DNA from: an uncultured Bacteroidota bacterium
Lineage (GTDB): Bacteria; Bacteroidota; Bacteroidia; Chitinophagales; Chitinophagaceae
Direction of reading: 5' to 3'
Assembly (NCBI GenBank): GCA_903824665.1
Contig: CAIJXT010000035.1
Location: 1-64,000 of the forward strand
DNA: 64,000 bases
The notes under the pieces are model-generated. The model was not told the DNA's origin. It did not search any database and saw only the letters and a program-made list of their open reading frames with translations. The position numbers were made by a program, and so were the translations under genes. Below, in pieces: positions 55,862 to 64,000 of this stretch (positions are counted from its first letter, which is position 1; each line of letters begins with the position of its first letter).

Positions 55862-58834
55862 TCAATAATACTCCTTTATATACCCATACGCCTTTTCAAA
55901 AAGTTCTTCTTCTTTATGAAGTTGATACTTTAGTAGTGTTTTTCGCAATGACTTTTGAACCTCTCTTTCTCCCGCAACGGTTGTTTGCCAGCCGGGAAAG
56001 CGAACTATTTTTACTATAGCGTCTATGTCATTCACTATACGCTCTACGACAGCAGGTGTTTTATCCGTTTTTAATTCTAAAAACAGCTCGGTTAATACTG
56101 ATGTCGCCGATTTTCGTTCTTCAGGCGTGTACATGTTCCGCTCAACCTCTAAAGTGTCGCGTGCTATCTGGCAAAGCTCTTTGATAAAGTCGATGCTACT
56201 TATCAATCCCTTTTCTGCTTTAAGCCGCACATCATCAAGCCTATCACTAAGTTTTTTAATTTCCGGGTCACCACCACGCCCTTTGAACCTGTAGATCAGT
56301 AACCTCATTACTTTCTCGGCTTCCTTAGGGTCCTTTTTATTCATTAGGCTATCAATAACTTCAGCATCAAGCACCATTTCTTCCATCTCATGGTTTACAC
56401 CATCTACGTGTATATGATCATGAATGAGGGCAGTTGTTTGCGCACCAAGGGCGTGCCACAATAGCCTGCCATGATCGTCTGTAGCAGGGCGCACAGAAGT
56501 GTAGACCTGGCTTAGCCATTTATAATCTCGCTGGCATGAATTGAGGATAGGATCGGGACTTAACGCCTCCCAAACTTTAGACAAGGAATTATAGTCTTTG
56601 GCAAAAGCATCTCTTTTTTCATTGGTGTTGATACATTCCTGTGCTTTTGTCAAACCTTCAAATCCTTCAATAGACCTGTCAGTTCCCGAAAAATGCATCA
56701 AACACTTTTCTATCAATAGAGGTAACTGTTCCCTGAGCTCCTCCAAATTTGTGACAATTGCTTTTACCGCAAGCTCATCGAAGGCTAATGCTTTGGCTGT
56801 ATCATCAAAAACGCCGAAATAATCTACTATCCTGCCAAACGATTTGTTTGGGAATAAACGGTTGGTCCTGCAAATGGCCTGCAAAAGCGTATGATCTTTC
56901 ATAGACTTATCCAGGTACATAGTTTGCAGAATAGGCGCATCAAATCCAGTAAGCAGCTTTGCAGTGACTATTAAGAATTTCAGTGGCGAATTAGCATCAT
57001 TATATTCGTCAACTACCTTTTCCTGCTTGTCTTTATCCATCGCCCACTTCTGCTTGAATTCGAGACTGTCGTTGGCCGTTGTTGAAATAACTACCTGACT
57101 CATTCGCTCCGGCAGGAGTATATCAAGTTGCTCTTTGTACAGCACACAAGCTTCCCTGTCTGGTGCTACTATCATTGCTTTAAAACCTTGCGGCTCCACA
57201 TGCTCCCGGAAGTGTTCCGCTATATCAGTTACAATGGTCCTGATACGCTCCGGCGATTTAAGGAAAACGGACATCTTTGCCGCCTGCTGGCTCAGCAGAT
57301 TCTTATCAGCTTCACTAAGGTCGTTTGCCAGTTCATTAAATGCAATGTCAAGTTTTTCTTTGTCTATATGAACGTTAGGCAGGCGGGGCTCAAAATGCAA
57401 TGGCCTTGTTTGCTCATCGCGAAGACTGTCCTGGAAAGTGTACCTGCTCAGATAGCCTCCCTCATCCCCTTCGGCACCAAAAGCCCAGAAGGTATTTTTA
57501 TCAGCTTTATTTATGGGAGTACCAGTTAGGCCGAACAAAAATGCGTTGGGTAAAGCAGCACGCATTTTCCTGCCTAGGTTGCCCTCCTGAGTGCGGTGGG
57601 CTTCATCCACCATCAGGATAATGTTTTCGCGTTTATTCATGTCGGCATAAGCATCCTTAAACTTATGCACCATGGTAATAATAATTTTCCTGGTGTCTTT
57701 TTCAAGCAGGTCGTGCAGCTCTTTAATACTATCGGCATTCACCAGGTTGGGTATATCCGCAGCATTGAATGTGCCTGATATCTGAGTGTCGAGGTCTATG
57801 CGATCTATTACTATGACCACAGTGGGGCTCTTCAGCTCCGCCATTTTCCGCAGCTTTTGCGCAGCAAACACCATGAGTAATGACTTGCCCGACCCCTGGA
57901 AATGCCAAATCAAACCCTTCCTTATGATCCCTTCTTCTACGCGGGCTACTATAGCATTGGCACCTTCATATTGCTGGTAGCGGGCTACTACCTTTATTTT
58001 CCGCTTTTTGCTATTGGTGCTGTAGATGACGAAATACTGCAAAATATCAAGCAGCGTTTGCGGGCGCAGCAGGCTGCTCATTTGCTTTTTTACGTCATGC
58101 AAGTTGGCATATTTTGCCAGCTCGTCATTTTCTTCTTCTATCCTCCACGGGCACCAGAATTCCAGCGGTGTTTTCACCGCACCATACCTCAGCTCTTTAC
58201 CCTCTGTGGCAAAGCTGAGGATATTGGGCACAAATAGTGCAGGCACTGTGCCCTCATAAATATCATGAATATCAAAAGCGCCATCTAGCCACGATACCGC
58301 TGGGCGCACTGGCGTTTTGGCCTCACCTACCACAACCGGTATGCCATTGATGAACATTACTATATCCGGTATCTTGGTTTCTCTGGCTCTGATCTTGAAT
58401 TGGTTGGTGAGTATGTAGGTGTTATTACCATAGTCCTCAAAATCAATGAGCCTTATCGCCACATGAGCCCCATCTTTACCGAAGGGCATGGTCTTATCTC
58501 CCTTTAGCCACAATGCAAACTCTTCATTGGCCGATACCAGCCCCAAGTTGCCTACTGATAGCAAAATGGCCCGCAGCTTATGTATCACCTCATCTGCCCG
58601 CTCCGGCTGCGCATATATCTCAGGGTTTATTTTGATAAGTGCCTTTTTCAGCTCTCCCTCCAGCAACACTTCAGTTATTTCCCGCTTAAGCCTATCGGCA
58701 GGTACATACTCCCATAGAGCATTGCCATACCGCGACTCCGGTTCACTCACCACTCCACCGGCAAGGTTAAGATTTACGCCAGTTAGCTCTTTTACGATAA
58801 GGTGTTCTACGGTATTGAGTTCGTTGAATGACAT
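55862..58834 (-). CDS. hsdR: Type I restriction enzyme, restriction subunit R
   Basis: A 990-residue motor-nuclease subunit. The N-terminal nuclease domain has the PD-(D/E)xK residues D157, E171 and K173 (KIPDIVMF, VVVGEAKTP). The helicase has GSGKS (314-318), the DEAH box at 410-413 (VDEAHRTQ), GLTGTP (435-440) and TAKLLTGFDAPILQ. A helical region that binds the methylase core follows. With HsdM and HsdS it cuts DNA lacking the host methylation pattern after translocating along it. Its ATG lies 1 nt after the HNH gene, so it is last in the operon; the methylase gene must lie outside the window. All core residues are intact. Confidence 0.95.
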   Translation of the reverse strand: MSFNELNTVEHLIVKELTGVNLNLAGGVVSEPESRYGNALWEYVPADRLKREITEVLLEGELKKALIKINPEIYAQPERADEVIHKLRAILLSVGNLGLVSANEEFALWLKGDKTMPFGKDGAHVAIRLIDFEDYGNNTYILTNQFKIRARETKIPDIVMFINGIPVVVGEAKTPVRPAVSWLDGAFDIHDIYEGTVPALFVPNILSFATEGKELRYGAVKTPLEFWCPWRIEEENDELAKYANLHDVKKQMSSLLRPQTLLDILQYFVIYSTNSKKRKIKVVARYQQYEGANAIVARVEEGIIRKGLIWHFQGSGKSLLMVFAAQKLRKMAELKSPTVVIVIDRIDLDTQISGTFNAADIPNLVNADSIKELHDLLEKDTRKIIITMVHKFKDAYADMNKRENIILMVDEAHRTQEGNLGRKMRAALPNAFLFGLTGTPINKADKNTFWAFGAEGDEGGYLSRYTFQDSLRDEQTRPLHFEPRLPNVHIDKEKLDIAFNELANDLSEADKNLLSQQAAKMSVFLKSPERIRTIVTDIAEHFREHVEPQGFKAMIVAPDREACVLYKEQLDILLPERMSQVVISTTANDSLEFKQKWAMDKDKQEKVVDEYNDANSPLKFLIVTAKLLTGFDAPILQTMYLDKSMKDHTLLQAICRTNRLFPNKSFGRIVDYFGVFDDTAKALAFDELAVKAIVTNLEELREQLPLLIEKCLMHFSGTDRSIEGFEGLTKAQECINTNEKRDAFAKDYNSLSKVWEALSPDPILNSCQRDYKWLSQVYTSVRPATDDHGRLLWHALGAQTTALIHDHIHVDGVNHEMEEMVLDAEVIDSLMNKKDPKEAEKVMRLLIYRFKGRGGDPEIKKLSDRLDDVRLKAEKGLISSIDFIKELCQIARDTLEVERNMYTPEERKSATSVLTELFLELKTDKTPAVVERIVNDIDAIVKIVRFPGWQTTVAGEREVQKSLRKTLLKYQLHKEEELFEKAYGYIKEYY

Positions 58835-58835
58835 G

Positions 58836-59708
58836 CTATATTGATTGTATAAATTTGATAAATGCTATGCGTAATACCGTCGCGCCGCGTTTATTCCCTA
58901 TTGCGGCCACTAAAAATTGATCATATTGTAGTAGCATTTCTTTATAAAATGCACTGTATGATAAATTCCGACTTATCGGCCGCCATATATCTTCTTCGAT
59001 AATGTCCTTCAAATCGTCTATAACGACGATTGCGGCTCTTTCTCCAGATACATACCTGTCAATACGTCTTCCAAATTTGTACAGAAGATCATCGACAATT
59101 TTCTTTCTTCCATTGATCCAAAGTTCGTCTCTATTCAAGCCATAAACTTTAATACTCAATGTACCCCTTGGAGAGTTACTATCAACAATTTTACCACTTG
59201 GCAAAAATTTAATGTGCTTTGCAGGGTCATCGATTTCGGGGTTTATAAGCTCAAAACCTTCGTTCTTTAGAGGACTATTCAAAATGAAATTTGCTCTGTC
59301 ATCGAGAACACCAGCCAAAAGCGTAGGACCAAGAACTCTTCCTGGTATGTTTCTTATCGGGAACTGATTGTTTTTAGTAGAATTACAATTGCCACAGGCA
59401 AGTAACAGGTTTGACCATTCATAAGCTAGCCAATAATAACCAGTGTGAACAATTCCAAATACTCCATCCTTGGGCCGAAAATGTTCAACCTGAGCTGGAC
59501 TCCCTTTAGGTTCTTGTTCGCAATAAGCACATTTGCTATTGTAAATCCCTTTCAACATACGAAGGATGGGTGCACTTCTATATAATCCTGAAGCACCAGG
59601 GAACCAGCCACCAGCTGCCATTACAGCAGCCTTTGCATCGATATACGGTTGCCTATGTGGGTTTAGACTAAGTGGACGAATTAGATAATGTTTGTTTATT
59701 TTTTTCAT
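58836..59708 (-). CDS. HNH endonuclease, PtuB-like
   Basis: A 290-residue nuclease. The zinc-finger type HNH core has C60-x2-C63 (SKCAYCEQ), then VEHFRPK with H76 as the likely catalytic His, a WSNLLLAC stretch, and the second Cys pair C105-x2-C108 (ACGNCNSTKNNQFP). This pattern is that of the HNH partners of AAA ATPases in Septu-type defence systems and in some retron systems. It overlaps the ATPase gene by 4 nt (ATGA), as in Septu ptuAB loci. In Septu the pair protects against phage, and the ATPase controls the nuclease. The assignment rests on motif and neighbour. Confidence 0.85.
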   Translation of the reverse strand: MKKINKHYLIRPLSLNPHRQPYIDAKAAVMAAGGWFPGASGLYRSAPILRMLKGIYNSKCAYCEQEPKGSPAQVEHFRPKDGVFGIVHTGYYWLAYEWSNLLLACGNCNSTKNNQFPIRNIPGRVLGPTLLAGVLDDRANFILNSPLKNEGFELINPEIDDPAKHIKFLPSGKIVDSNSPRGTLSIKVYGLNRDELWINGRKKIVDDLLYKFGRRIDRYVSGERAAIVVIDDLKDIIEEDIWRPISRNLSYSAFYKEMLLQYDQFLVAAIGNKRGATVLRIAFIKFIQSI

Positions 59709-61492
59709 TTTTTGCCAAGGGTTGCTTTCAGTTTAGCTATATACTGTGCATCAGGCATAATTTTGATATTCAGCTTTTTCTTCAGTTCCTCAAAGTCTTT
59801 GGCTTCTTCGTAGTCATCCTGAGTTAGAATTTCCGATTTATCTTGATTTGAATTGGCAGATATCGTTCGCATTCCAAAAACAGGTGAAGTCAAAATGTTG
59901 TTTGGAGTGAGGTTCTTTACATGGAAATTCTCTATTTTATCAACGACAATTTCCATTTTTGAATCGCGTTTTACCACATAAAAGGCACTTTCTTCAGGAG
60001 CGCCAAGCAATGGAATTGGGCTATGAGTTGAAATTACAAATTGAATACATCGAAAATTATCATTCAGCAGCTTAACAATTGCCTTCTGAAAAATTGGGTG
60101 TAGGTGGATATCAATTTCATCTATTAACACAATACCTTGAAGTTCTGCTATGTCCGTTACTTCCGGCTGCTCCTGAAATAATCTAACAATCATATCGCCT
60201 ACCATCGATATGATATTTTTAGCCCCAGAGGCCAATTGTCCATATGAAACTTTTAACACAGCAACGTCAGCCTCCAATTTGTCTACGTTGAACTGAGAAT
60301 CACTTTCTTCGAATAGTTCATCATTGTCCGGATTACCTAAAACGTATTGTGTAGGACTATTGTCATTTGACCATATAAATTTTCGAAAACCGGGGATCAT
60401 ATCCCGTATTGCTGCTGCTATTATTGACTTTCGCTTCTCCAGCTCTTCATCGTCAAGATTCGGAAGTAACTGCAATCCTTTTTCAATGTCGTATAGTATA
60501 GGTGCCGAATTAAATAAACTGTCGTTGTAACTATGTTGGCTTATATCAATATCAATAGAGTGGTTAGTCATCAATCTATACGGTCCATAACTTGCGTAAC
60601 CTAAAACCACTTTCTCCGCAGTGTGGTTGGAACTTTTTGTTTTACTAAACTCTACAACTTTTTGCGCACTGCCTTTTTCAGTATGTACACTCAGTTTAAC
60701 TTCAACATTATAGTCTCCTTCTAGGCCTGATTCTGCAATTATTTTGTGATCAGACGTCAGGGCAGTACCAATTGCTTTGAGAATAGTACTTTTTCCGGTT
60801 CCATTTTCCCCAGTCAAAAAAATACACTTTGCATTTTGAGGAATATCTCCGATAACGCAGTTTTTAATTCCGAGAAAAGAGTTAATTCTTATTTCATTAA
60901 GCTTGAACGGATTTGGCACCTCCCTTTTTTCATCTTCAGTAGTAAATGTAATGCTAGTTATTCTAGGCGTTCTACGATATCGCTCAATGTTATTTATCCA
61001 TTTTTCAAATGTTTTCTCAGGTATTAAACCAAGTTTGTTGCCGTCTTTTTTCAATTCTGTTGACCTCAAGATAGCATCATCAATTCTAGGTTTATCTTCT
61101 TTCAAGAATACATCCAATGATTCTTTTATTATTCCAAATTGCCAACCGCTATTACCATAGTATTTGTAATACCTTCCTTTAATAAGGTCCAATTCTGAGA
61201 TTTTGCCATAAAGCTCCCTATCCACAAAAGTTTTTTTAATATCTGAGTCAAAAACCGAAATCATCAAGAAACACTCCGTATCCATGATACAGAAATAAAT
61301 GTTCGGAGTTTTGTTCATCCAGTCGGTACCTGTCCAGAATGAAATCGCTATATAACTATCATTACCATGAAACCAATACCCGCGATCTAATCGTCCAAAC
61401 CTATTTGTGATTCTGGTTGTAAATCGAAAGCCGGGGTCATGTTCATGCCTCTCGGACAAGTACTTATATAACTCTTCATATAATTCATGCAT
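59705..61492 (-). CDS. AAA/ABC-type ATPase, PtuA-like
   Basis: A 595-residue ATPase of the RecF/SMC-like ABC class. Walker A is GENGTGKS (228-235), a signature-like QLASGAK stretch lies near 419-425, Walker B is VLIDEID (455-461) followed by HLHP, and the switch His is H490 in STHSP. Residues 1-190 precede the ATPase and form an extra N-terminal domain (YWFHGNDSYIAISFWTG, TPNIYFCIMDTECFLMISVF) that I do not recognise. As the upstream half of a Septu-like pair it would sense invading DNA or nucleotide state and license the HNH enzyme. It starts 12 nt after the GIY-YIG gene. Confidence 0.85.
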   Translation of the reverse strand: MHELYEELYKYLSERHEHDPGFRFTTRITNRFGRLDRGYWFHGNDSYIAISFWTGTDWMNKTPNIYFCIMDTECFLMISVFDSDIKKTFVDRELYGKISELDLIKGRYYKYYGNSGWQFGIIKESLDVFLKEDKPRIDDAILRSTELKKDGNKLGLIPEKTFEKWINNIERYRRTPRITSITFTTEDEKREVPNPFKLNEIRINSFLGIKNCVIGDIPQNAKCIFLTGENGTGKSTILKAIGTALTSDHKIIAESGLEGDYNVEVKLSVHTEKGSAQKVVEFSKTKSSNHTAEKVVLGYASYGPYRLMTNHSIDIDISQHSYNDSLFNSAPILYDIEKGLQLLPNLDDEELEKRKSIIAAAIRDMIPGFRKFIWSNDNSPTQYVLGNPDNDELFEESDSQFNVDKLEADVAVLKVSYGQLASGAKNIISMVGDMIVRLFQEQPEVTDIAELQGIVLIDEIDIHLHPIFQKAIVKLLNDNFRCIQFVISTHSPIPLLGAPEESAFYVVKRDSKMEIVVDKIENFHVKNLTPNNILTSPVFGMRTISANSNQDKSEILTQDDYEEAKDFEELKKKLNIKIMPDAQYIAKLKATLGKK

Positions 61493-61504
61493 GATGATGG
61501 TAAT

Positions 61505-62050
61505 TTATAGTTTGGGCTCCGCCAATATACTCAAATACTTAATAATATCACTGGCAACAACTTCTACTACCTCTTCATTCTCGTTCCCAAAGTGTATTTC
61601 CTGCTGATACAACGGCCATTTACCAGTCACTGACTTTATTCTGAACACTATTTCCGCTTCAATACATTCCACTAGGCGTTTGTATTCATCATAACCAGGA
61701 TCGCCCTTTTTTATGGCTGTTTTGAATGGCTCAAACACCCATACGAATAGCTCAACATCTTCTTCTCCCTTCCAACCATAGCCGTGATAGCCTTTCTGAT
61801 TTTTGGGATACAGGCCATAGCGCAGCCTGCTGCCTATATGCTGATCAGCATAGCCCACATAGAGTACATCTTTTCCTTTGCGAACGATGTATATTTTAGG
61901 GCACCGGCCTTGGCGAACATCTTTGTCAAAGTTCTTTATACAAATCCCTTCCTTTTCTATGCGGCATATTTTTCTTGCATCAATACCATGCTGGGCGAGA
62001 TGTAGCGTATACCGGAACGGGTCTGAATATTTGGGTGGGGTTTTTATCAT
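61505..62050 (-). CDS. GIY-YIG-like nuclease domain protein
   Basis: A 181-residue protein. The central part matches the GIY-YIG layout: IYIVRKG (53-59) in place of GIY, LYVGYA (63-68) in place of YIG, Arg in SRLRYGLYP (75-77), and a conserved Glu in CIEAEIVFRI (131-133). WPLYQQEIHF follows where the conserved Asn is often found. The N-terminal 45 residues are helical (FRYTLHLAQHGIDARKICRI). GIY-YIG enzymes cut DNA one strand at a time. It sits 10 nt after the HEPN-like gene and 12 nt before PtuA. I take the ATG at 62050, just after that stop codon. Confidence 0.7.
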   Translation of the reverse strand: MIKTPPKYSDPFRYTLHLAQHGIDARKICRIEKEGICIKNFDKDVRQGRCPKIYIVRKGKDVLYVGYADQHIGSRLRYGLYPKNQKGYHGYGWKGEEDVELFVWVFEPFKTAIKKGDPGYDEYKRLVECIEAEIVFRIKSVTGKWPLYQQEIHFGNENEEVVEVVASDIIKYLSILAEPKL

Positions 62051-62060
62051 GGTTGTATGT

Positions 62061-62993
62061 TTAGATATCGGTAGCCTGCCACCCCCAATCATACCCAAAT
62101 TTCACCAGGCTGATATCGAGATGCATCATGTGCAGTAACTCTGCTCTTTTTAAGTATTGCTCTGAAGCCTCGTTGCGCTTTGCTTCATATTTGTTCAGGT
62201 GTGCTAATGTTACCGGGTTGTTGGTGCGGGTTATGGTAATGAGCTCACCGATGTCGGCAAGTAGTGCTGTGACTTTATTGGGCTCTATAACCAGGTCTTT
62301 AACAGGAAACGGAATCCACTCCGGCAATTCTCCTTCCAGAATATCGTCTACCTTTTCCGGTACTGGGGCTATATGCAGGCAGTATACCCATCCGTCGGCG
62401 GTATGTACTGTTGCCGATAGCAACATCAGTTCTGCCAGCACTTCTTTATCTTTCAACTTCAAGGCATAAGCACCTATACCCAAAGGCTCCATTTTATCCA
62501 TCATCAGCAACTTATGCTCATGGGCCTTTAGGAAATACTGCTCGTCCATAAACAGTACATTCAGCAATACTACACACCGCCGCATGCGGGCACGCAGTAT
62601 ACCACCCAGGTCGCGGTCTTTGCTGGCGTGCATATATTTATTGCGATCGTCTCGTAATTTATGTAGCAGATCATTGAGCCCTTTGGTTGGTTCCTTTGTG
62701 GTGATATCATCAATGAGCCCTGCCAGAATTTTATCGTTTTTCAGGCCCAGTTGCGTACACCGCAGCTTTACCGCCAGTTCGACTATGCGCAGCACCTTGC
62801 TATACGCCTCATCATACAGTAGCGGGTGATAATAAGCATGAGCCATCATATACTCAGCCAGCAAGTATTCTTCTCTTATTTCCCCAGGTACCGAAGGATG
62901 AAACCTGCCCCTGATGACAAACTCCCTACAGTAACTTTCAAAGTCATGCAGATCATATAGTTTCCACCACACTGCCGGTTCATGATACTCCAT
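62061..62993 (-). CDS. HEPN-like protein with RX4H motif
   Basis: A 310-residue, mainly helical protein. Residues 40-140 look like a HEPN domain: LLAEYMMAHAYYHPLLYDEA, VELAVKLRC, then LHKLRDDRNKYMHASKDRD, with R117 and H122 forming RX4H. This is the metal-independent RNase motif of many HEPN toxins and abortive-infection proteins. The C-terminal half (VHTADGWVYCLHIAPV, then YEAKRNEASEQYLKRAEL) is unknown to me. Its ATG overlaps the hsdS stop by one base (TGATG), so it is coupled to hsdS. An RNA-cutting role is an inference. It could instead be a non-catalytic helper of the restriction system. Confidence 0.65.
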   Translation of the reverse strand: MEYHEPAVWWKLYDLHDFESYCREFVIRGRFHPSVPGEIREEYLLAEYMMAHAYYHPLLYDEAYSKVLRIVELAVKLRCTQLGLKNDKILAGLIDDITTKEPTKGLNDLLHKLRDDRNKYMHASKDRDLGGILRARMRRCVVLLNVLFMDEQYFLKAHEHKLLMMDKMEPLGIGAYALKLKDKEVLAELMLLSATVHTADGWVYCLHIAPVPEKVDDILEGELPEWIPFPVKDLVIEPNKVTALLADIGELITITRTNNPVTLAHLNKYEAKRNEASEQYLKRAELLHMMHLDISLVKFGYDWGWQATDI

Positions 62994-64000
62994 CAGGCAC
63001 TGAATATTTGGTTGATTAATTGCTTCTTAATTAGTTGGGTTTTCGAAATCTGATTGCCTATTTCTAAAATACAATCCTCTACTATATTGATTCTTGTAAC
63101 AATCGCCTCTTGCTCGAGAATAGTAAGATTAGGAACTTGAATTTCCTTCAAAATTGCAAGGTTCAAACCTGTCCTTGAGTTGCTATCCCCTGTCATTTCC
63201 CTAAAGTCATCATATTTACTATCTAAATAATGAAACAGAAATTCAGGCAAAAAAAGCTGTTTATTAGGCAAAAATGCAGCAACGGACTGATTTGTACATA
63301 ATTCAACTTTTGTAATTGCAACCGTGCCTTTTGTTTTACCTTGACCAGCTAAAGCTATGACTACTGAGTTTTCTGGTAAAATTTTTGTACTGGAATTGTT
63401 TAGCCCATCTTCGGTGATTCTTCCTTCAACATCATAGATTCTTTTTTTGTGAACGTCACCAGATGCCATCCATTTGATACTGCCATTTTCCCAATACCTT
63501 CTCTCACTAGTACTTGGAGTGCCTCCAGCTGTTAACTTAAAAATAGTTCCAGCTTTCACAAATTTCCCCTTGTAGTCTTTAAAAAATACTTTCCTTAAAC
63601 AATCCTTCACAATAAGTTCGGATTTCATCAATTCCTCCAATCGTTCTATTGTTTCATCTGCAGCCCAAAGCAACTCAGCCAGCTTTGCCTGCTGGTCTTT
63701 TGGGGGTAGCAGGATTTTGAAATCCGCAACATCTCTCCATCTTACATGAGGATTGGTGGAGCCGACTATAGCACTTGTGGTATGACTATAGAATGAATGC
63801 GATAAAAACAATTGAGGAAAGAACTGCTCATCAACCAATTCGTTGTTCGCCTCCAATGTCAGCGTTTTCTCTCCACAAATACCATCAAAAGAAGCTAACG
63901 CAACTCTTCTCAAATGTGGATTTCGGGTGGGGTATAATACCTGTCCTTTTCTGAAAATTTTGTAGAACGTAGGTGGTAATTCATCCTTCACAATTTCGCC
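62993..64000 (-). CDS. hsdS: Type I restriction enzyme, specificity subunit S (N terminus outside window)
   Basis: The last ~335 residues of HsdS; the open frame runs off the right edge, so the start is missing. The visible part begins in the first target-recognition domain and ends it with VRWRDVADFKILLPPKDQQA. The first conserved helix LAELLWAADETIERLEELMK follows. The second target-recognition domain comes next (KFVKAGTIFKLTAGGTPSTS, IKWMASGDVHK, INDRITEDG-like GRITEDGLNNSSTK), with NLTILEQEAIVTRINIVED and the second conserved helix to the end. The specificity subunit sets the DNA sequence recognised. The coding sequence is visibly richer in A and T than that of the HEPN gene. Confidence 0.9.
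   Translation of the reverse strand, partial: GEIVKDELPPTFYKIFRKGQVLYPTRNPHLRRVALASFDGICGEKTLTLEANNELVDEQFFPQLFLSHSFYSHTTSAIVGSTNPHVRWRDVADFKILLPPKDQQAKLAELLWAADETIERLEELMKSELIVKDCLRKVFFKDYKGKFVKAGTIFKLTAGGTPSTSERRYWENGSIKWMASGDVHKKRIYDVEGRITEDGLNNSSTKILPENSVVIALAGQGKTKGTVAITKVELCTNQSVAAFLPNKQLFLPEFLFHYLDSKYDDFREMTGDSNSRTGLNLAILKEIQVPNLTILEQEAIVTRINIVEDCILEIGNQISKTQLIKKQLINQIFSA

Follow-up and report, generated by a model that had tools for sequence, protein, structure and literature searches.

A 64,000-nucleotide (nt) stretch of DNA from an uncultured Bacteroidota bacterium of the Chitinophagaceae (GenBank assembly GCA_903824665.1, contig CAIJXT010000035.1, positions 1 to 64,000; hereafter the window) ends in a type I restriction-modification operon that has two hsdM genes and probably serves as a chassis for exchangeable accessory defence genes, the cargo adding further layers to the restriction system that carries it. 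The operon is a nine-gene run on the minus strand, hsdM1-x142-hsdM2-hsdS-HEPN-GIY-PtuA-PtuB-hsdR, its window coordinates running from 67531 to 55862. The window stops within hsdS, and the same contig (94,963 bases; L004) continues with hsdM2, x142 and hsdM1. In relatives of this operon the gap between hsdS and hsdR holds Septu-type genes, entirely different defence modules or nothing at all, and cargo is found in the hsdM1-hsdM2 and hsdM2-hsdS gaps as well. The first-pass annotation of the window had described six minus-strand genes as a type I operon into which a Septu-like pair, a HEPN gene and a GIY-YIG-like nuclease gene are inserted, next to hsdS on one side and hsdR on the other; all six are present with the overlaps it gave, and family matches, motifs and relatives support their assignment. 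The features are the following.

55862..58834, minus strand: hsdR, type I restriction motor/endonuclease subunit, 990 amino acids (aa); HSDR_N, SWI2_SNF2 and T1R_D3-like matches, TIGR00348
58836..59708, minus strand: PtuB-like HNH nuclease, 290 aa; PADLOC PDLC00316, PF01844 HNH, CxxC...VEHF motif
59705..61492, minus strand: PtuA-like ATPase, long form, 595 aa; PADLOC PDLC00287, Walker motifs
60932..61492, minus strand: N-terminal domain of PtuA, residues 1-187; defined by 22 loci, an alignment and a model
61505..62050, minus strand: GIY-YIG-like small nuclease, 181 aa from the ATG start; relative in L052 matching PF01541, four-member alignment
62061..62993, minus strand: HEPN-like protein, 310 aa; alignments, R117-x4-H122
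62993-64153 (window part 62993..64000), minus strand: hsdS, specificity subunit, 386 aa; PF01420, PDLC03100
64150-65622, minus strand: hsdM2, beyond the window on L004; MTase_I
65619-66047 (L004:10619-11047), minus strand: x142, a 142-aa gene between hsdM1 and hsdM2, beyond the window
66047-67531, minus strand: hsdM1, beyond the window on L004; MTase_I

All junctions in the run are overlaps or gaps of at most 12 nt, and the genes may be transcribed together. Within the window, hsdS and the HEPN gene overlap by 1 nt, and the remaining gaps are 1, 10 and 12 nt, the 10-nt gap being counted from the ATG of the GIY gene at 62050 (7 nt if counted from 62053); an upstream TTG, taken as an alternative start, would extend the GIY gene into the HEPN gene. 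The identities of hsdR, hsdS and both hsdM genes are clear from family matches. HsdR scores 548 bits against TIGR00348 (cut-off 284.55) and by family match has a nuclease N-domain and an SF2 motor, HsdS matches PF01420 (Methylase_S) and PADLOC PDLC03100 (3.6e-52), as expected of a subunit with target recognition, and both HsdM proteins match MTase_I (664 and 550 bits) and carry NPPY/NPPF motifs. The gene between them, x142, has no Pfam or PADLOC match; by eye only, it resembles PD-(D/E)XK proteins.

The inserted PtuA matches PDLC00287 over residues 3-580 of 595 (437 bits, 2.6e-131), and its ATPase core has an intact Walker A (GENGTGKS) and VLIDEIDIHLHP as well as an intact LIDEIDIHLHP segment. 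PtuB matches PDLC00316 (163 bits, 3.7e-48) and the HNH family PF01844, with the CxxC...VEHF motif intact, and weakly matches the solved PtuB structure (E 1.9e-4). As in Septu, where PtuA and PtuB are adjacent and overlapping, a PtuA with Walker A and Walker B is adjoined by an HNH PtuB, here with a 4-nt overlap; unlike Septu, the window PtuA has an extra N-terminal domain of about 180 residues and sits inside a type I operon. At 595 aa, compared with 465 aa in PDB entry 8ee4, it does not match the Septu form that has no extra N-terminal domain, and PDB entries of PtuA and retron PtuA match it within residues 395-550 only. According to the available text of PMC11555353, Septu PtuAB acts on nicked DNA and retron-Eco7 PtuAB on tRNA. 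The pair in the window might be taken for part of a retron of I-A-like type that had escaped recognition, with PtuAB held by a complex of reverse transcriptase and multicopy single-stranded DNA (msDNA). The two proteins do match the retron Ec78 models, weakly, and retron PtuA structures match the ATPase core. Against this, the NCBIfam PtuA and PtuB matches lie far under their cut-offs (130 vs 500 bits and 51 vs 150 bits), Rfam finds nothing but a tRNA in L004:1-16000, with the limit that it may not include such msr/msd RNA, and no reverse transcriptase is present among the operon proteins scanned with Pfam and PADLOC. A retron was rejected on this last ground, and we regard it as very improbable.

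Repeated co-occurrence, named beforehand by the first-pass annotation as the test of its proposal, was found for part of the insert. PtuAB lies between hsdS and hsdR in four more loci of the window's hsdR lineage (L059, L066, L069, L073; 64-80% identical), and HEPN together with PtuAB recurs once, in a Roseivirga metagenome-assembled genome (L069) with the order hsdS-HEPN-PtuA(short)-PtuB-PtuA(long)-PtuB-hsdR and its tandem PtuAB pairs at L069:6692-12584; the HEPN proteins of L069 and the window are 24% identical. The PtuAB pair of L073 shares its gap with a PDC-M29 pair. Outside this lineage, the long PtuA follows hsdR in Chryseobacterium type I operons (L061-L063, with L050 near-identical) and belongs to clusters with the order methyltransferase - NurA-like - HerA - long PtuA - PtuB in Bacteroidota (L060, L064 (L057/L064), L067 and L068), in which HerA is labelled by Pfam, the methyltransferase by an SPPY motif, and NurA by eye, with no Pfam or PADLOC match. 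These clusters may represent a separate defence system, for which no name was found in the literature search. Exchange is visible in the phylogenies: in the PtuA tree the window protein groups with that of L059 (100/100) and the L066 protein with PtuA of the Chryseobacterium type I operons (100/100), the L066 PtuB groups with the window PtuB (97/93), and the L066 hsdR is 66% identical to that of the window. These discordant affinities indicate that PtuA, PtuB and the chassis do not always travel together; several other placements are unsure because of long branches.

A census of the lineage with hsdR alone as bait, and therefore blind to cargo (at least 50% identity, the window's own hsdR excluded), returned 16 relatives: 12 in 395 genomes of the phylum and 4 new ones in 350 genomes of the class. 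The E cut-offs were 1e-100 (phylum) and 1e-180 (class) with no more than two candidates scored per genome, so lineage members may have been missed, and 14 relatives were readable after two were dropped, one with hsdR at a contig end (L099, genome G277) and one with hsdR broken up (L100, G392). Eight of the 14 have cargo in the hsdS-hsdR gap and six have none (L089, L091, L093, L097, L098, L106). The cargo consists of PDC-M29 (L103, and L090 together with a macro-domain gene), PDC-M11 (L092, L094, L095), the phosphoribosyltransferase and reverse transcriptase of a retron III-A (L096, 4395-6980), a PD-Lambda-4-like protein with PDC-M21 (L104), and PDC-M21 (L105). The L092 contig runs out before reaching hsdS, which leaves only part of the gap visible; it was nevertheless scored as occupied, the pair abutting its hsdR being 92% identical to the PDC-M11 pair of L094. 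PtuAB, HEPN and GIY genes were seen in none of the 14 gaps, where absence means that no open reading frame of at least 100 aa matched the references in blastp at 1e-3. This speaks against a fixed four-gene unit, and the idea that the four inserted genes recur as one is not supported: the readable relatives have the gap empty or filled with other modules, and the GIY gene was not seen again in such an operon in 60 related genomes, genome contigs, plasmids and fetched loci.

The two other gaps of the operon are occupied in a similarly varied manner. In the hsdM2-hsdS gap, L097 has IetA and L098 has a DUF1016 nuclease (PDC-S02) as cargo; between hsdM1 and hsdM2 it is x142 in the window, GmrSD in L066, a methyltransferase-Schlafen fusion in L059, a DUF4062-HATPase gene in L094, an HEC-05-like gene in L104 and a protein-kinase gene in L106. 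Genes for DNA methyltransferases fused to a Schlafen AlbA_2 domain occur in the hsdM region of this lineage at L059:5853-7301 and L069:950-2503. The chassis also exists free of inserts, on plasmids of Exiguobacterium and Streptomyces with two methyltransferase genes, hsdS and an hsdR that is 50.7% and 49.3% identical, respectively, to that of the window. Since so many different modules (retron, PDC, GmrSD-type, IetA, DUF1016, macro-domain, kinase and Schlafen-type) fill the same few gaps, the gaps of this lineage could be mined for new systems; embedding of this kind already serves the discovery of defence genes.

The two other inserted genes are labelled with more caution. The HEPN-like label is drawn from relatives and a motif: R117-x4-H122, an Rx4-6H motif, is invariant in seven aligned members, and at E<=1 four of the seven match DUF4145 (best 1.9e-5), which we take to belong with HEPN domains, one matches HEPN_Apea and one matches HepT-like. 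The window protein matches PADLOC Csx1/Csm6 at E=0.0023. Relatives were found in 5 of 394 other genomes of the phylum, whereas searches of viral contigs and phage records gave none. HEPN relatives lie near type I genes in L045 and L047, in L046 at a BREX locus that includes BrxA and BrxC, and on a plasmid behind ATPase, helicase and BRCT genes in L053; the references used revealed no modification gene in L048 and L049. The GIY-YIG-like assignment is drawn from a relative in L052 that matches PF01541 above cut-off and from a four-member alignment, read against the positions that we take to be the core and the C-terminal Asn of GIY-YIG enzymes, in which the core tyrosines, Arg and Glu are kept, except for Lys in place of Arg in L101. 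GIY-YIG enzymes usually have a C-terminal catalytic N; all four aligned members have Q at this position. A search of the genome contigs with the GIY protein singly gave no match, and no hsd genes accompany the relatives in L052 and L102 (by blast) or in L101 (by its annotation only). A weak match in L008 (genome G042) was discarded, having stops and no match in the GIY comparison.

PrrC is an anticodon nuclease linked to type I restriction-modification systems. A four-gene PrrC/Hsd cluster is named in the available text of PMC11555353. The window operon resembles such a system in that a type I operon holds a candidate toxin that would cut RNA, and differs from it in that this candidate is HEPN-like and is not PrrC. 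The first-pass annotation knew of no named system with this four-gene insert, and literature searches likewise found no name for the combination; defence genes lodged between hsdS and hsdR, in contrast, have already been described in print (PMC12255303, PMC11411939, from the text available of each). The window shares with these TgvAB- and DarTG2-type cases the same-strand, nearly gapless extra genes between hsdS and hsdR. Like the window, the RptR-RMS-DarTG island of enteropathogenic Escherichia coli has a defence pair between hsdS and hsdR and a small gene upstream of the operon; unlike it, the cargo is DarTG2, there is one hsdM, and no Septu, HEPN or GIY gene is described in the accessible part of the paper (PMC12255303). 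TgvAB, in the type I operon of Vibrio cholerae VPI-2, is likewise an embedded two-gene defence for which complementary layers were proposed, but is a GmrSD-like type IV pair in an operon that, in the text at hand, has one hsdM and no Septu (PMC11411939). Septu within Hma systems (cited from Payne et al. in the portion of PMC12255303 available) resembles the window in having a methylation-based host, which is a helicase-methylase-ATPase system there and a type I system here. In BREX and BREX-related systems a modification system is accompanied by HEPN proteins and further nucleases, for which a role as suicide or backup effectors is proposed in the part of PMC12839542 available, but the window holds a type I system and not a BREX core. 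Among the literature records listed, no recognised description of the nine-gene operon or of the PtuA domain was found; type I operons with Septu may already be among the cases in the preprint of Payne et al. on embedded defence.

Set against these systems, the window operon would work as a layered defence. As the first layer, HsdM, HsdS and HsdR would, by family membership, modify the cell's own DNA and cleave phage DNA that lacks the modification. The exchangeable cargo, in the sites hsdM1-hsdM2, hsdM2-hsdS and hsdS-hsdR, would follow: PtuAB may cut invading DNA, perhaps fed by the nicks and ends that HsdR produces, and the HEPN protein, a candidate RNase, might be the last resort that shuts the cell down if phage replication continues. 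This last role is suggested because of the backup-effector model in the available text of PMC12839542. The first-pass annotation had proposed that the insert may include a backup, cutting RNA or DNA, that would act once restriction has failed.

The extra domain of PtuA (residues 1-187) is an apparently new feature of the locus. Searching some 85,000 species genomes with this domain gave 22 loci, and 16 aligned members share, among others, G38, W40, F41, G43, N44, Y47, D57 and I65. Its predicted model is confident (pLDDT 92.1, pTM 0.87), yet no Foldseek match in either PDB or BFVD reaches E 0.001 (best 0.078 and 0.0098, respectively), sequence profiles find nothing convincing in PDB (best E 0.026), any one Pfam family fits at most one of the 16 members at E 1, a search of viral contigs gave no relative, and a plasmid search with PtuA residues 1-200 gave no match. 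The domain is also found on seven larger proteins other than PtuA (L074-L080), among which the only one scanned for families (L058 = L074) matches KAP_NTPase; three of the seven were scored near type I genes, and L080 went unscored, with no open reading frame picked at the match, though hsdM- and hsdR-like genes lie within that locus. Aligned to the PtuA of the window or of Chryseobacterium, neither the listed PtuA matches from the 16 control loci nor the short PtuA from L069 begin before residue 196, which indicates that these proteins do not have the domain. Judged by its distribution, it is a candidate adaptor or sensor that may tie the Septu-like nuclease to a modification system.

This distribution was compared with that of ordinary PtuA by scoring restriction or modification genes on the same strand within 8 kb (blast E 1e-10, with references partly from long-PtuA loci). 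Such a gene accompanies 13 of 16 long-PtuA loci, the window included, and 1 of 16 ordinary PtuA loci (p=1.9e-5), or p=1.3e-4 when the near-identical L050, L061, L062 and L063 are collapsed to one. When methyltransferases were scored by motif, with none of these references, the counts were 9/16 versus 1/16 (p=0.003); this test misses the four Chryseobacterium loci. The long-PtuA set comprises 14 of the 15 PtuA loci of the domain search, the window and L050, a truncated near-duplicate of L070 (L071) being omitted; the controls are 16 of the 27 ordinary PtuA loci L018-L044, chosen non-randomly as high-scoring and with enough flanking contig, and L051 (short PtuA, G248, no hsd match) stands outside the set. 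In the sole positive control, L111:4036-12700, an ordinary PtuA-like ATPase lies between hsdR-like and hsdM-like genes.

Several observations weigh against an operon-wide chassis with these particular layers. The cargo of the window is uncommon, as the 14 census gaps indicate, and its four inserted genes were seen together in no other locus. The paired hsdM genes are not constant in the lineage either, with a single hsdM in L073, L089, L090 and L103 and one plus methyltransferase-Schlafen genes in L069. The window HEPN protein itself has no accepted Pfam match, and none of the HEPN families found in its relatives at E<=1; its model is poor (pLDDT 47) and was built from two sequences only. The GIY protein has no Pfam match. 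As regards the association, references drawn partly from long-PtuA loci favour that side of the 13/16 count, a methyltransferase-like match at E 2.5e-6 in control L120 would raise the controls to 2/16 at a looser threshold, control L113 has a HerA-like gene nearby, and for three long-PtuA loci (L065, L070, L072) the 8-kb scan picked up no modification gene.

How far the cargo of such a chassis is functionally tied to it can be read in different ways. Under plain stacking, to which we give an even chance, the hsdS-hsdR gap would simply tolerate recombination and the cargo would act independently, its location providing nothing but shared transcription and transfer. The many unrelated modules in this gap agree with this, as do the description of the site as a potential recombination hotspot (in the text available of PMC12255303) and the protection that an embedded pair confers without the nuclease activity of HsdR (in that of PMC11411939); what stacking explains less well is the enrichment of long PtuA beside methylation genes relative to ordinary PtuA, which exceeds what random stacking of PtuA would give. 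The same chassis could instead be coupled to its cargo, the N-terminal domain of PtuA docking on or reading the modification-restriction complex so that PtuAB is restrained as long as restriction works and is set free once HsdR is blocked or itself generates broken DNA. In keeping with this, the domain is found on PtuA of three methylation-linked backbones (the type I lineage of the window, Chryseobacterium type I operons with GmrSD genes, and the methyltransferase - NurA-like - HerA clusters) and on the larger proteins described above, is missing from the control and short PtuA proteins, and has a confidently modelled fold for which no known match reaches E 0.001; but the three long-PtuA loci without a modification gene count against it, and shared inheritance could account for part of the association. 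We consider coupling of PtuAB a rather unlikely possibility. Slightly more doubtful is the broader proposal that the domain is an adaptor of a kind not described before, linking various effector ATPases (PtuA, a KAP NTPase and further large proteins) with DNA-modification systems and letting them sense the failure or activity of restriction, in which case the operon would be an integrated multi-layer defence and not an independent stack. If the domain does link effectors to restriction, the idea of a guard on restriction becomes directly testable with a defined domain.

Beyond the operon, a 168-aa gene lies 153 nt upstream of it, followed by a serine-recombinase-like gene (L004:13798-15513, or 68798-70513 in window coordinates; labelled from its sequence by eye), the 3' end of which overlaps a tRNA-Leu. 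This context fits an inserted island, for which no second attachment site was found: the search gave no direct repeat of at least 20 nt in L004, and the end of the tRNA-Leu was not found again in the window. The gene on the left flank has no close orthologue in four genomes of the same genus (best 36% identity). Three of these four have no such tRNA in the fetched stretch, and in the fourth (G002) the surroundings of the tRNA-Leu are the same but are followed downstream by other genes.

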